Of a stretch of 36,556 nt of DNA, positions 7,322-15,596 are shown piece after piece. Origin of the DNA: an uncultured Lachnospiraceae bacterium (GTDB lineage: Bacteria; Bacillota; Clostridia; Lachnospirales; Lachnospiraceae). Location: NCBI GenBank assembly GCA_947063675.1, contig CAMSTM010000017.1:1-36556 (forward strand). The letters run 5' to 3'. The notes under the pieces are model-generated. The model had not been told where the DNA came from and searched no databases. It saw nothing but the letters and a program-made list of their open reading frames with translations. The position numbers were made by a program, and so were the translations under genes. The number at the start of each line of letters is the position of its first letter. Position 1 is the stretch's first letter.

Positions 7322-8653
7322 TTGAAAAGAGAGTATGTGAAGCAAAATGTCTACGACGCTTTTATTGAGCGTCTGCATTTTATTTTTCAGGAATTTAATA
7401 ACATTTATGTGTCCTTTTCCGGCGGAAAGGACAGCGGGCTTTTGCTGAATATGGTGCTTGACTTTCGGAGGAAATATTATCCTGACAGGATAATAGGCGT
7501 TTTCCACCAGGATTTTGAAGCGCAGTACACGGTGACGAGCGAGTATGTGGAGAGAACTTTTGAGAGGATAAAGGATGAGGTGGAGCCTTACTGGGTGTGC
7601 CTTCCCATGGCCACAAGGACGGCGCTTAGCAGCTATGAGATGTACTGGTATCCCTGGGACGATACGAAAAAAGAGGTCTGGGTAAGGCCCATGCCGGAAA
7701 AGGAATATGTTATCAATCTGGAAAATAATCCCATTACCACTTACCATTACCGGATGCATCAGGAGGACCTTGCAAAGCAGTTTGGACGCTGGTATCGCGC
7801 AATCCACGGCAGCAAAAAGACGGTCTGCCTTCTTGGAATGCGCGCGGACGAATCTCTGCAGCGGTACAGCGGATTTTTAAATAAAAAGTACGGATATGAG
7901 GGGGAATGCTGGATTACCAATCAGTTTAAGGGCGTCTATTGTGCGTCGCCTTTATATGACTGGTCGTCAGGGGATATCTGGCATGCAAATTATCTGTTTG
8001 GCTATGATTATAATTATTTATACGATTTGTATTATATGGCGGGGCTTAAGGTTTCACAGATGCGGGTGGCCTCTCCCTTCAACGATTATTCCAAAGACGC
8101 TCTGAACCTTTACCGTGTGATTGACCCGGAAATCTGGGCAAAGCTGGTGGGAAGGGTACAGGGTGCGAACTTCGCCTGTATTTACGGTAAGACGAAAGCC
8201 ATGGGCTACCGCAATATCACGCTTCCCGAGGGGCATACATGGAAATCCTTCACTCTTTTTTTGCTGGAAACGCTTCCGGCGAGGCTCCGCAACAATTATG
8301 TGAAAAAATTTAAAACCTCCATTGAATTCTGGCATAAAACCGGCGGAGGGTTGGACGAGGAATCCATCACAGAACTGGAGCGGCACGGGTATCAAATCAA
8401 AAGAAACGGCGTTTCCAATTATACCCTGAGCAAGAAAACAAGAATTATTTTTCTTGGGGATATCCCCGACGACACTGACGATATTAAGTCGACAAAAGAC
8501 ATTCCAAGCTGGAAAAGGATGTGCTATTGTATCCTGAAAAACGACCATATCTGCCGTTTTATGGGGTTTGGGATGAGCAAGGAACAGAAAAAGCGGATTG
8601 ATGTTATCAGAAAAGAGTACAAAAGCGTAGAGGAGATGGAATATGGAGTATAA
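7322..8653 (+). CDS. IbrA-like PP-loop (PAPS reductase-like) DUF3440 protein
   Basis: NIYVSFSGGKDSGLLLNMVLDF PP-loop motif; TVCLLGMRADESLQR; RFMGFG C-terminus. Confidence 0.85.
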   Translation: MKREYVKQNVYDAFIERLHFIFQEFNNIYVSFSGGKDSGLLLNMVLDFRRKYYPDRIIGVFHQDFEAQYTVTSEYVERTFERIKDEVEPYWVCLPMATRTALSSYEMYWYPWDDTKKEVWVRPMPEKEYVINLENNPITTYHYRMHQEDLAKQFGRWYRAIHGSKKTVCLLGMRADESLQRYSGFLNKKYGYEGECWITNQFKGVYCASPLYDWSSGDIWHANYLFGYDYNYLYDLYYMAGLKVSQMRVASPFNDYSKDALNLYRVIDPEIWAKLVGRVQGANFACIYGKTKAMGYRNITLPEGHTWKSFTLFLLETLPARLRNNYVKKFKTSIEFWHKTGGGLDEESITELERHGYQIKRNGVSNYTLSKKTRIIFLGDIPDDTDDIKSTKDIPSWKRMCYCILKNDHICRFMGFGMSKEQKKRIDVIRKEYKSVEEMEYGV

Positions 8654-9170
8654 GAGTCCGGTTTACCAGGTGATTCCGGTTCCTATTGAAAAAATACAGC
8701 CGAATACCTATAATCCGAATACGGTGGCGCCGCCGGAGATGAAGCTGCTCTATGAGAGCATTAAAATTGACGGTTACACAATGCCCATTGTGTGCTATTA
8801 TAATAAGGAAAGCGATACTTATATTATCGTGGACGGTTTTCACCGTTACAGAATCATGAAAGAAAACGCCGATATTTATGAGAGGGAAAAGGGGATGCTC
8901 CCTGTGTCGGTGATTAACAAGTCAATTGACCAGAGAATGGCAAGCACGATTCGTCACAACAGGGCAAGGGGAAGCCATGATGTGGATTTGATGAGCAATA
9001 TTGTAAAAGAGCTTCATGAGCTGGGAAGGTCGGACGCGTGGATATCCAGACATCTTGGCATGGACAGGGACGAAATTCTGCGTCTGAAGCAAATCACCGG
9101 CCTTGCGTCGCTTTTTAAGGATATTAAATTCGGCGACGCATGGCGTCCGGTGGAGGAGGAAGGCGAATGA
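8643..9170 (+). CDS. IbrB-like ParB/Srx-domain protein
   Basis: [29 protein letters not shown] (ParB box), [14 protein letters not shown] region and HTH-like tail; overlaps the upstream ORF by 11 nt. Confidence 0.85.
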
Positions 9171-11435: not shown

Positions 11436-11445
11436 GAGTACGGTG

Positions 11446-11474
11446 TTTACTTTTACGTTTGTTTCGGGTACAAT
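11446..11474 (+). promoter_or_regulatory. predicted sigma-A promoter of the PARIS-like operon
   Basis: TTTACT (11446-11451) - 17 bp - TACAAT (11469-11474). Confidence 0.55.
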
Positions 11475-11520
11475 ATTATAATAAAAGCATTGATAAAAAA
11501 TCAGGGCGCAGGGAAAAAAC

Positions 11521-12795
11521 ATGAAGCATATTGAAATAAAAGGATTATTTAACAGATTTAATTACAGTTTTGATTTTGGCGGGCAGGAGATACAGATGCT
11601 GACCGGACCGAACGGGTTTGGAAAATCTACTATTTTAAGATGCATAAAGGCTTTTTCGGACAGCGATTTGCGGTATTTTTTTACGCTGCCCTTTAAGAGT
11701 ATCAGGATAGGGAATTCTGAAATAAAAGAAGAGGTTTTGATAGAGAAAAATGCCCAAAAGCAGCTGTTAATAAATGGAAAATATATCACAGAAAAAATCA
11801 TGCTGGAATATAAAAGTCCGTATCCCAGAAACGGCGTTGATGGAAGAATTGATTATATGGCAAAGATATGGGATGAATCCGAACAGAATACTTCCGATTT
11901 GGGGCAACTCGGTAAAAGTGATTATAAAAAGATACTTATAACAATGAAAGATATTGTTGGCGATGTTTTTTTCATAGAAGAACAGAGATTGATTCAAAGG
12001 AAGCAAAATGAAAAAAACAGTTTCTATTTTGATGCGAAAGGAGTGCTCAGAACAGAAAAAAACAGCGGGGACTGGGAGAGTATCATAGAACTCATACCGG
12101 GAAAAATTAAAGGGTATCTGGACACCGTTGCAGGAGAGTATGCCAATAAAGCGAATTCTCTGGACGCCACATACCCGCAGAGGCTTTTTGACGACAGCGA
12201 CGACAGCTTTTCGGAGGAAGAATATAAACGTCAGCGGGAGCTTATGAACGAAAAACTGGATAAGCTCAAAAAATATGAAATTTCCCAGTTCAGAAAAATG
12301 GAGGCGCAATATAAAGCAAAGTACGAGAAGGCTCTGAAAATTTATTTTGAAGATTTTAATGAAAAATATAAAACTTATGAGCAGTTGATTGAAAAGTTGG
12401 ACATGTTTACAGACATGGTCAACAAAAGAATTTACTTTGATGAAATCAGAATTGATAAGGATAAGGGCTGCGTAGTGGTCGATAAAGAGAACGAGAAGGA
12501 TGTTCTGGATTTAAATAAGCTCTCTTCCGGGGAAAAAGAGATTATCGTTTTATTTTATAAGCTGATTTTTGAAGTAAAAGAGGGTACGATGCTGCTTCTG
12601 GACGAACCGGAAATATCGCTTCATGTCGCGTGGCAGAGAATGTTTGCGGAGGATATGTATACAATAGCCAAAAAACGCGGAATAAGGATACTGGCGGCAA
12701 CGCATGCACCGATGATTATCAACGGACACAGGGATGTACAGATAGATTTGGGAGAATTATATGGGAGAGCTTGCAAAAGACTCAATCAGGCGTGA
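11521..12795 (+). CDS. AAA_15/OLD-like ABC-type ATPase, AriA-like
   Basis: Walker A GPNGFGKST, signature LSSGEKEI, Walker B TMLLLDEPEISLH, switch AATHAPMII. Confidence 0.85.
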   Translation: MKHIEIKGLFNRFNYSFDFGGQEIQMLTGPNGFGKSTILRCIKAFSDSDLRYFFTLPFKSIRIGNSEIKEEVLIEKNAQKQLLINGKYITEKIMLEYKSPYPRNGVDGRIDYMAKIWDESEQNTSDLGQLGKSDYKKILITMKDIVGDVFFIEEQRLIQRKQNEKNSFYFDAKGVLRTEKNSGDWESIIELIPGKIKGYLDTVAGEYANKANSLDATYPQRLFDDSDDSFSEEEYKRQRELMNEKLDKLKKYEISQFRKMEAQYKAKYEKALKIYFEDFNEKYKTYEQLIEKLDMFTDMVNKRIYFDEIRIDKDKGCVVVDKENEKDVLDLNKLSSGEKEIIVLFYKLIFEVKEGTMLLLDEPEISLHVAWQRMFAEDMYTIAKKRGIRILAATHAPMIINGHRDVQIDLGELYGRACKRLNQA

Positions 12796-13597
12796 ACTGG
12801 AAGATGCCGTATGTTATGATATTGATAACATGAGACTTCTTCTTGCGGAGGATTTCAGGCATACAAAAGGATTTGTCTTTCTGGAAGGGCCGGACGACGT
12901 TAAATTTTTCAGGAGACAATTATCAGATGTGGCAATAGGGATTGAGTATTATGGAACCGGCGGAAAGCACGGAATAGAAAAAGCTCTTGCAGACGAGAGC
13001 ATGAAAGATGACAGGGTAATAGGAATATGTGACAGAGATTATTCAGAGGAACAGGCGGACAGAATATTTTATTGTGACAAATGCTGTCTGGAGCTGATGG
13101 TGATAAGCGAAAACGAGGTGTGGCATAAATTTTGTGATTTATATTATAATGGAGAGGAAGATTATGCATCTGTTCTGGCAGGAATATTGCGACAGCTTGC
13201 GCCTGTCAGTATGCTAAGAAAAGAGAATGCACAGAAAAATGCGGGAATAGAGGAGGTTGATTTCCGCAAATTGAAGCTTGGAAAATATTTGGATGTACAT
13301 AATATTGACATTTGTCAGGCATTTACTGACTGCGGCTGGAAAGGGTATTATGAGCATTGTCTGCGGCTGGCAGCAAATTTGACGGATGCAGAATTATATG
13401 AGTATACAAATGGACACGATTTATGCAAAATTTTAGGGATGATATGCGAAGGCGGAAAAGGACCTTTAGGGGAGAAGAAGGTAAGAGATATTCTATATAA
13501 AAAATATGAAAGAAGAAATTTTGTGAAAACTGATTTGTATAATGACTTAAAACAATATCAGAATCAGGAAAGCCGGACGTGGAAATATGTAGACTAA
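12761..13597 (+). CDS. DUF4435 (TOPRIM-like) protein, AriB-like
   Basis: GFVFLEGPDDVKFFRR and VIGICDRDY (TOPRIM Glu and DxD motifs); 35-nt overlap with the ATPase gene. Confidence 0.8.
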   Translation: MGELAKDSIRRELEDAVCYDIDNMRLLLAEDFRHTKGFVFLEGPDDVKFFRRQLSDVAIGIEYYGTGGKHGIEKALADESMKDDRVIGICDRDYSEEQADRIFYCDKCCLELMVISENEVWHKFCDLYYNGEEDYASVLAGILRQLAPVSMLRKENAQKNAGIEEVDFRKLKLGKYLDVHNIDICQAFTDCGWKGYYEHCLRLAANLTDAELYEYTNGHDLCKILGMICEGGKGPLGEKKVRDILYKKYERRNFVKTDLYNDLKQYQNQESRTWKYVD

Positions 13598-13627
13598 GAT
13601 GAAGGCCTGGCCGATTGGGAGAAGAGA

Positions 13628-14005
13628 ATGCTTCTGAATAAAAATATTGTATTTGAAATTATTGATACGAATTTTATAGATGATGTAACTGACTGCTGTG
13701 AAGAATCTATTCTGAGGATGGACGAAGACGAGTTGGGCGATTACTTTGAAGAATATGCAGATAAAGCCTGTCTGGAGACCATTTATGACATTAATGTAGA
13801 GGATTATGATGAGGAGGAAAAGGACGGAATCCAGACAGTGGAGGGCTTGCTGGAAATCGCGGCGCTGATTAACGGATATGCAGATTGGGGAGATGAAGCG
13901 GAGTACATCGGAGATGCGGAGGTGATTCTGGGCTTTGCATTTTCTTTTCAGATTGATACACAGACGAATGAAGTCGGTTTTTTTGATATTGCCTGGGAGT
14001 ATTAG
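13628..14005 (+). CDS. highly acidic hypothetical protein
   Basis: 125-aa ORF 30 nt after the DUF4435 gene; 36 Asp/Glu versus 4 Lys/Arg counted from the translation; ggagaagag RBS-like sequence before ATG. Confidence 0.75.
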   Translation: MLLNKNIVFEIIDTNFIDDVTDCCEESILRMDEDELGDYFEEYADKACLETIYDINVEDYDEEEKDGIQTVEGLLEIAALINGYADWGDEAEYIGDAEVILGFAFSFQIDTQTNEVGFFDIAWEY

Positions 14006-14023
14006 CCTGTAACGGAGAAATCT

Positions 14024-14872
14024 ATGATAACCATAACAAAAGATAATTTTTCCATAAAACAAATCTGCGAATCGGGACAGTGCTTCCGGCTGGATAGGAT
14101 TAAAATGCCGGGGGAACAGAGCAACGTTGTAAAAATGGAGGAAGCAGAACGGTATAACCTTATTGCTTTTGGAAAATACCTGGAAATTGCGCAGGAGGGG
14201 AATCGGCTTTCCTTTGACTGCAAGCAGGAGGAATTTGACAGTCTGTGGAAAGGCTATTTTGACCTTGAGGAGGACTACGGGAGAATCATCGCCTCTATTG
14301 ACGGGGAGGATGACTATCTTTTTAAGGCGGCTTCCTATGGAAGCGGAATCCGCATTCTCAGGCAGGATTTATGGGAGATGATAGTATCTTTTATTGTTTC
14401 CCAGCAGAATAATATCAAACGGATAAGGAAATGCATTTCTCTTTTGTGCCGGAGGTATGGAGAGGAAAAGGCGGCGGCTTCGGGAAAACGCTATTATGAT
14501 TTTCCCACGGCAAAGGCTCTTGCCGGGGCGTCTTTTGAGGAGTTATATGCCTGTAATCTGGGCTACCGCAGCCGGTATATCCATGAAACCGCCGTGAGTA
14601 TTGCGGAAGGAGCCGTGGATTTGGAGGCGGTCAGGAAAATGGACTATCTGGCGGCAAAGGCGGAGCTTATGAAGCTTTGCGGTGTGGGAATCAAGGTGGC
14701 GGAATGCATCTGTCTGTTTGCCCTGCATAAGACGGAGGCGTTTCCGGTGGATACGCATATCAGTAAGGTGCTTACGGCGCAGTATCCGTCGGGATTTCCT
14801 TTCGACAGGTACAAAGGTTATGCGGGGACTTTGCAGCAGTATATCTTTTATTATGATTTGATGAACGGGTGA
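14024..14872 (+). CDS. 8-oxoguanine DNA glycosylase (OGG1-like, HhH-GPD)
   Basis: MIVSFIVSQQNNIKRIRKCI; MKLCGVGIKVAECICLFALHKTEAFPVDTHI (HhH-GPD with catalytic K and D). Confidence 0.9.
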   Translation: MITITKDNFSIKQICESGQCFRLDRIKMPGEQSNVVKMEEAERYNLIAFGKYLEIAQEGNRLSFDCKQEEFDSLWKGYFDLEEDYGRIIASIDGEDDYLFKAASYGSGIRILRQDLWEMIVSFIVSQQNNIKRIRKCISLLCRRYGEEKAAASGKRYYDFPTAKALAGASFEELYACNLGYRSRYIHETAVSIAEGAVDLEAVRKMDYLAAKAELMKLCGVGIKVAECICLFALHKTEAFPVDTHISKVLTAQYPSGFPFDRYKGYAGTLQQYIFYYDLMNG

Positions 14873-14880
14873 GGAGGAAA

Positions 14881-15126
14881 ATGAACCAACTAAAAAATGA
14901 GCCGATTCATGATAAACGAGAGTTGGAGTTTGCGGTATTTTGTATCGAAAATATAGCGCTGGCGCTTGGTGTCAGCCCGGAAAAGGTGTATATTGCGCTG
15001 TCGGAGAACAGCGATATTTTGAACGGATATATTGTTCCGTGTTATGACGCTCTGCATACTCAGGGAAAAGAGTATATTGTAGAGGATATTTTGGCGTTGA
15101 TGGAGAAAAGGGGTGTATCTGTATGA
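14881..15126 (+). CDS. DUF3791-family small protein
   Basis: ELEFAVFCIENIALALGVSPEKVYIALSENSDILNGYIVPCYDALHTQGKEYIVEDILALMEKRG; gaggagg RBS. Confidence 0.75.
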   Translation: MNQLKNEPIHDKRELEFAVFCIENIALALGVSPEKVYIALSENSDILNGYIVPCYDALHTQGKEYIVEDILALMEKRGVSV

Positions 15127-15596
15127 CGGTGTATCATGGTTCCAATATTGAAATTATGAAACCGGATATGGCGCATTCCCGTCTGAAACTGGATTTTGGA
15201 AAAGGATTTTATACAACATCTCTTTTGCCTCAGGCGGAAAAATGGGTGGAGCGTTTTCGCCGGGGCGGAGGCGAGGGGATTATAAATATTTATCAATTGG
15301 ATGAAGCTGTATGGACAGAGACGAGGATTCTTTGTTTTGACACTTATTCCGGCGAATGGTTGGATTTTATTACAGCCTGTCGTCAGGGAAAAGACACGTC
15401 AGACTATGATTTGATAATTGGCGGTGTGGCGAATGACAGGGTATTTAATACCTGTGAGTTGTATTTTAAACACTATATAGACAAGGATACAGCGATTGAC
15501 AGGTTAAAATACGAGAAACCAAACCAGCAAATCTGCCTGAAAAACCAGAAAACCATCAACCGGTATCTTCATTTTGAGAGGAGTAAACGTAGATGA
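15123..15596 (+). CDS. DUF3990-family ADP-ribosyltransferase-like protein
   Basis: MTVYHGSNIEI, DFGKGFYTTSLLPQAEKWV, LIIGGVANDRVFNTCELYF, NQQICLKNQ; ATGA overlaps with both neighbours. Confidence 0.8.
   Translation: MTVYHGSNIEIMKPDMAHSRLKLDFGKGFYTTSLLPQAEKWVERFRRGGGEGIINIYQLDEAVWTETRILCFDTYSGEWLDFITACRQGKDTSDYDLIIGGVANDRVFNTCELYFKHYIDKDTAIDRLKYEKPNQQICLKNQKTINRYLHFERSKRR

Follow-up and report, generated by a model that had tools for sequence, protein, structure and literature searches.

A conserved acidic third gene accompanies a divergent PARIS-type ATPase and TOPRIM pair in a gut bacterium

The PARIS anti-phage system is described as a two-gene cassette or as a fusion (PMC9122126, PMC12409363). 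In the window, that is the whole stretch of 36,556 nucleotides analysed here, a PARIS-like ATPase and TOPRIM pair is followed by a third, very acidic gene, and the question is whether this gene belongs to the system and what part it might play in it. In the known system, the AriA hexamer binds three AriB proteins, which are inactive while held, and the freed AriB dimerises and cleaves tRNA-Lys and others (PMC11455837, PMC12409363). The acidic phage proteins Ocr and Arn are sensed by E. coli PARIS, probably electrostatically, through positive residues of AriA (PMC11455837, PMC12409363). The preliminary description of the locus had read the pair as AriA and AriB and had suspected that the acidic gene is tied to it. 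Every figure it gave was confirmed, namely the coordinates (Table 1), the overlap of 35 nt between the ATPase and TOPRIM ORFs, the spacing of 30 nt from the TOPRIM stop to the acidic ORF, and the composition of the third protein, whose 125 residues include 36 Asp/Glu and 4 Lys/Arg. The net charge of this protein is -32.

Table 1. Features of the three-gene cassette and its borders in the window
Feature	Position	Strand	Remark
Cassette bounded by the empty site	11436..14023	+	Between MATE efflux gene and OGG-like DNA glycosylase gene
MATE efflux gene, stop	11435
OGG-like DNA glycosylase gene, start	14024
Possible promoter TTTACT-17-TACAAT	11446..11474	+	Consensus match only; just inside the cassette
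AriA-like ABC/AAA_15 ATPase, 424 aa	11521..12795	+	Pfam AAA_15, PADLOC AriA, PDB AriA 8ux9
Walker A GPNGFGKS, ATPase residues 29-36	11605..11628	+	Invariant in six triad ATPases
ABC signature LSSGE, ATPase residues 334-338	12520..12534	+	Invariant in the six-ATPase alignment
Walker B end DEPE, ATPase residues 361-364	12601..12612	+	Invariant in the six-ATPase alignment
AriB-like DUF4435/TOPRIM protein, 278 aa	12761..13597	+	Pfam DUF4435, PADLOC AriB
Predicted catalytic Glu E42	12884..12886	+	Invariant in triad TOPRIMs and Yersinia prophage AriB-like protein
TOPRIM D-x-D metal motif D91-R-D93	13031..13039	+	Both Asp invariant
Acidic third protein, 125 aa	13628..14005	+	Same position in 6/6 triad loci

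The identity of the pair was analysed with family profiles and solved structures. The ATPase matched Pfam AAA_15 with 89.1 bits (6.1e-25), AAA_21 with 63.9 bits, and the PADLOC AriA profile with an E value of 3.8e-25. The search of the PDB with the ATPase profile gave AriA (8ux9) as the best structure, aligned nearly end to end at 2e-28, followed at lower ranks by PtuA (1e-11) and retron ATPases (about 1e-10). The GPNGxGK core of the Walker A motif is also present in a Yersinia prophage AriA. The TOPRIM protein matched Pfam DUF4435 with 37.5 bits (2.9e-9) and PADLOC AriB at 1.4e-12. The detection rule of Rousset et al (PMC9122126) sets minimum scores of 32 bits for AAA_15 or 27 bits for AAA_21, together with 27 bits for DUF4435, and the adjacent genes of the window score above all these values. 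The AriA/AriB composition proposed in the preliminary description is thus borne out by PADLOC, by Pfam and by the best solved structure. The ATPase is predicted to be the sensor and the AriB-holding subunit, and the TOPRIM protein is the predicted nuclease effector. The residues E42, D91 and D93 of the latter do not vary among six proteins, one of which is the AriB-like protein of Yersinia phage vB_YenM_31.17. E42 would be the counterpart of AriB E26, a correspondence drawn indirectly rather than from a direct alignment; no AriB chain of the PDB was reached by sequence search. The possible promoter in front of the ATPase gene, at the left edge (11446) given in the preliminary description, is one of 11 sigma-70-like matches found, compared with 10.5 expected in shuffled sequence.

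The order ATPase, TOPRIM and acidic gene was identical in all six loci sampled, referred to here as triad loci, namely the window, bacterium 1xD8-48 and the genomes G026, G315, G817 and G802. They represent five separate lineages from four genera, all within one family. The 1xD8-48 locus is a near-copy of the window cassette, G026 belongs to the window's genus and carries the triad on a different contig with different flanks, and G315, G817 and G802 come from further genera of the family. Identity to the window's proteins across the four lineages other than the near-copy ranged over 33-43%, and was about 35-40% between groups. No gene apart from the three was common to the compared triad flanks. 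As a separate observation, a SUKH/SMI1-KNR4 immunity-type protein is encoded after the acidic gene in G315 (L009:2824-3573), and none is encoded there in the window or G026. The DUF4435 score fell to 22.9 bits in G802, and the TOPRIM proteins of G026, G315 and G817 gave no DUF4435 match and no significant AriB match. Because DUF4435 lies below the cut-off in these four of the six loci, they would escape the usual PARIS rule.

The co-occurrence of the genes was then surveyed across genomes of the family. At a threshold of 1e-50 the ATPase profile was found in 4 of 397 genomes (the window's own, G315, G802 and G817). A second set of 397 genomes, drawn around G802, gave the acidic profile in three (G802, G315 and G817), always beside the pair; the two sets have equal completeness and genus tallies and apparently hold almost the same genomes. 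In the genus survey, TOPRIM matches and full-length acidic matches occurred in the same three genomes, and the acidic gene is single-copy in the window genome. Partial weak acidic matches in the genus genomes G005 and G002 were rejected as chance, as they lie inside large ORFs in genomes lacking a TOPRIM protein of the family. Among the fetched loci, the profile search placed the acidic family in triad loci only, and eight outgroup pairs are without it.

The extent of the unit was read from its insertion site. The MATE and OGG genes are separated by about 15-40 nt in at least five genus-mates (L043, L048, L049, L051, L052) and by about 90-110 nt in three more, and none of the three cassette proteins was found at these loci. 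The segment inserted in the window holds exactly the three genes. The same site is empty in G026, whose own triad is located elsewhere. A partnership of the acidic gene with the downstream glycosylase was considered and rejected, as the glycosylase occurs without an adjoining acidic gene in 14 of 14 genus genomes tested and the triads of G026 and G315 have no glycosylase as a neighbour. Two further gene pairs were noted in the surroundings of the cassette. Directly after the glycosylase gene, a DUF3791 ORF (85 aa) overlaps a DUF3990 ORF (157 aa) at 14869-15596 and has a toxin-antitoxin-like look. Just before the endonuclease IV gene, a DUF3440/PAPS-reductase-like gene and a ParB-like gene (an IbrA/IbrB-type pair) lie at 7322-9170, and this neighbourhood is also seen in the genus-mates L041 and L045.

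The phylogenies of the three proteins were compared. The six triad ATPases group together as a single clade (100/99), to the exclusion of the eight outgroup pairs. The split of the window, 1xD8-48 and G802 from G026, G315 and G817 is common to the ATPase, TOPRIM and acidic trees, with weak support (77/80) in the tree of the short acidic protein. For pairs of loci, the distance in the acidic gene correlates with the distance in its partners at 0.71-0.77 when the near-copy is left out. Since the window and G026 belong to one genus and lie on opposite sides of this split and at different sites, we infer that the cassette has moved horizontally. The linkage suspected in the preliminary description, for which it had proposed a neighbourhood survey, therefore holds, the acidic ORF being conserved in the same order in every close relative found, co-occurring with the pair and included in the three-gene insertion. 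In this clade the gene for the small, strongly acidic protein is obligately linked to the pair and is transferred along with it. The part of regulator, antidote or decoy that the preliminary description considered for it stays conjectural.

Comparison with the relatives indicates that the acidic ORF is a real gene, since the same ORF is kept in 1xD8-48 (89% identity, dN/dS 0.25) and full-length homologues of 33-37% identity occupy the corresponding position in four further lineages. As judged from the substitution ratio, the gene is under purifying selection. The homologues in the other triad loci are all strongly acidic (net -19 to -30), the family ranges over 119-125 aa, and two conserved blocks were observed, an N-terminal N-x-N-I-[IV] and, close to the C-terminus of most homologues, L-G-[IF]-[GA]-F-[SA]-F. 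The protein diverges faster than its partners. Between the window and 1xD8-48 its identity of 89% compares with 99% and 96% for the partners, with higher dN and dN/dS, and within G026, G315 and G817 it shows 39-50% identity against 59-62%. A part of this faster divergence is a general speed-up, because dS is also high (0.23 vs 0.05-0.08 for the partners). The window protein gave no match in Pfam, NCBIfam, PHROGs or PADLOC. Searches with every acidic homologue at lax cut-offs in Pfam, PHROGs and PADLOC gave stray hits only, each of 0.06 or worse and from a single member. Against the PDB, the six-member profile matched nothing but cytochrome P450 3A4, by chance (E 0.67 or worse), and the four-member profile nothing better than E 0.16. 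There was no similarity to any antitoxin or immunity family, and no relative was found in plasmids, phages or viral contigs, where close TOPRIM relatives were likewise not found. AlphaFold2 predictions from two-sequence alignments had a mean pLDDT of 35.7 for the acidic protein and the same value for the TOPRIM protein. By these searches the acidic protein is the founding member of an unnamed family.

The cassette was compared with known systems. Like E. coli B185 PARIS, it has an ABC/AAA_15 ATPase gene followed by a DUF4435/TOPRIM gene with the metal-binding acidic residues kept. It differs from that system in the conserved acidic third gene, in the length of the ATPase (about 396-432 aa in the triad clade vs 464 aa) and in the strongly diverged TOPRIM protein, which in most of the triad loci scores under the DUF4435 cut-off. 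The P2-like Yersinia phage vB_YenM_31.17, whose ATPase shows 31% identity over 97%, and Salmonella and Vibrio plasmids carry two-gene pairs with the ATPase gene before the DUF4435 gene, as in the window, but have no acidic-family member downstream. Pairs of the same two families with clear DUF4435 (52-54 bits) are found in G1128 and G882, from other classes of the phylum; these are AriB-AriA pairs that lack the acidic gene, unlike the window, and in G882 the order is nuclease gene, ATPase gene and then a gene of cyclase-like/TPR-S type. PMC9122126 and PMC12409363 mention no third PARIS gene, and a literature search on AriC gave nothing relevant, the coverage being incomplete, so a description elsewhere is possible. 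As a third conserved gene is found in all six loci of the clade and the established definition is two-component, the cassette is filed as a divergent variant of PARIS and not as a typical system. That the locus is a three-gene PARIS-type unit can be held with high confidence.

Other pairs of these families were observed during the comparison. In G882 (same phylum, outside the window's class; L038:3040-6764), the AriB-AriA pair is followed after 10 nt by a gene whose product of 484 aa has a TPR-S sensor domain (3e-8) and matches a class III cyclase weakly, below the cut-off (7e-4), and repeat-rich, CRISPR-like sequence lies on either side; this locus may represent a further PARIS variant in which the third gene is another one. 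Prophage ATPase and TOPRIM-like pairs on viral contigs (L018:4188-6282, L022:4191-6276, L023:4968-7167) lie far from the triad clade in the ATPase tree and are without an acidic gene.

A mechanism was drawn up by analogy. Since the ATPase and TOPRIM motifs are kept, the core mechanism is likely to be the same as in E. coli PARIS. Carried over from that system, the ATPase ring would hold the TOPRIM nuclease inactive, an infection signal would make the ATPase release it, and the freed protein would dimerise and cut RNA, probably tRNAs, so that growth stops. The acidic protein very likely works with the pair, and its most probable role would be that of a resident protein whose negative surface attaches to the ATPase-TOPRIM complex. 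As a resident acidic protein here adjoins a sensor of acidic proteins, the candidate docking places would be the face of the TOPRIM protein that binds tRNA or, on the ATPase, the basic region with which AriA of E. coli detects acidic proteins of phages. The AriB-like proteins of the clade are net negative (-12 to -18), so they could attract the acidic protein only through a local patch of basic residues. Bound at either place, the acidic protein could restrain the nuclease, as a brake or antidote that sets the level at which the system fires. The reading of the locus as a PARIS-type abortive-infection cassette in which the acidic third component restrains the nuclease is given a probability of about 0.48. 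The role of restraint rather than of activator or sensor is itself a tentative choice at somewhat less than even chance, preferred because a constitutive acidic trigger of AriA would be self-toxic. Against a separate antidote, AriA alone restrains AriB, and no toxicity results when ariA is deleted in E. coli B185 (PMC9122126). In a more specific form, which is unlikely, the acidic protein would be a resident mimic of the trigger that sits on the ATPase sensing surface without releasing the nuclease, and phage DNA mimics would have to displace it before the system fires. The arrangement of the genes is also compatible with a classical toxin-antitoxin module, in contrast to which known PARIS is already restrained by its ATPase.

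The main rival to restraint takes the acidic protein as a positive component, such as an adaptor, bait or sensor, and the pair would fire when it is bound, modified or removed; a cassette without it would then be inert. The strict co-occurrence observed is what an essential sensor would show, and the faster divergence of the acidic protein fits as well, but in E. coli PARIS the sensing is done by AriA itself and involves no adaptor (PMC12409363), and this reading is considered the less probable of the two. Another explanation is that the protein acts independently of the pair as a decoy, mimicking DNA or RNA against phage nucleases or host restriction enzymes. Its charge and size are like those of DNA mimics such as T7 Ocr, also small and very acidic (117 aa, compared with 125 aa for the window protein and a family net charge of -19 to -32). 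Ocr is phage-encoded and without sequence relation to the acidic family (hhalign probability 0.3%), whereas the acidic protein is host-encoded beside the pair. An independent mimic should moreover occur alone, but in about 400 family genomes the acidic gene was always accompanied by the pair, and the searches of plasmids, phages and viral contigs did not find it; the decoy is considered quite improbable.

Two more explanations concern the unit itself. If the acidic gene were a hitch-hiking passenger without functional tie, its own start, the gap before it, the lack of overlap with the TOPRIM gene and the ability of two-gene PARIS to do without a third gene would be accounted for. The gene is nevertheless kept in all six loci, where the partners are only 35-43% identical and the flanks differ, and purifying selection and the matching splits in all three trees also speak against a passenger, which has only a slight chance of being right. 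The pair could finally belong to another ATPase-nuclease defence (Septu PtuA, a retron ATPase, OLD or Gabija), in which case the AriA/AriB mechanics would be inapplicable. The PADLOC PtuA profile scores the window ATPase at 5.6e-23, nearly equal to AriA, and outscores AriA in two relatives, and the TOPRIM proteins of three relatives escape the DUF4435 and AriB profiles. The neighbouring genes are against it: no HNH-type PtuB was found among the three genes, no reverse transcriptase or UvrD gene follows, and the partner of the ATPase is a DUF4435/TOPRIM protein. The order of the PDB matches, with AriA far ahead of PtuA and the retron ATPases, and the grouping of two-gene DUF4435 pairs with the triad clade in the ATPase tree are in accordance with PARIS, and a different system is considered very improbable.

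The PARIS branch of this gut bacterium thus probably has an extra working part. The literature on PARIS (PMC9122126, PMC12409363, PMC11455837) leaves open how false firing is avoided and how AriB is activated after its release, and an obligate third protein with a charge like that of the phage triggers is a natural test case for the control of the PARIS alarm. If the resident-mimic reading is true, the cassette would contain a built-in competitor that tunes a defence alarm. As most members of the triad clade fall below the current PARIS profiles, PARIS in gut Clostridia may be under-counted.
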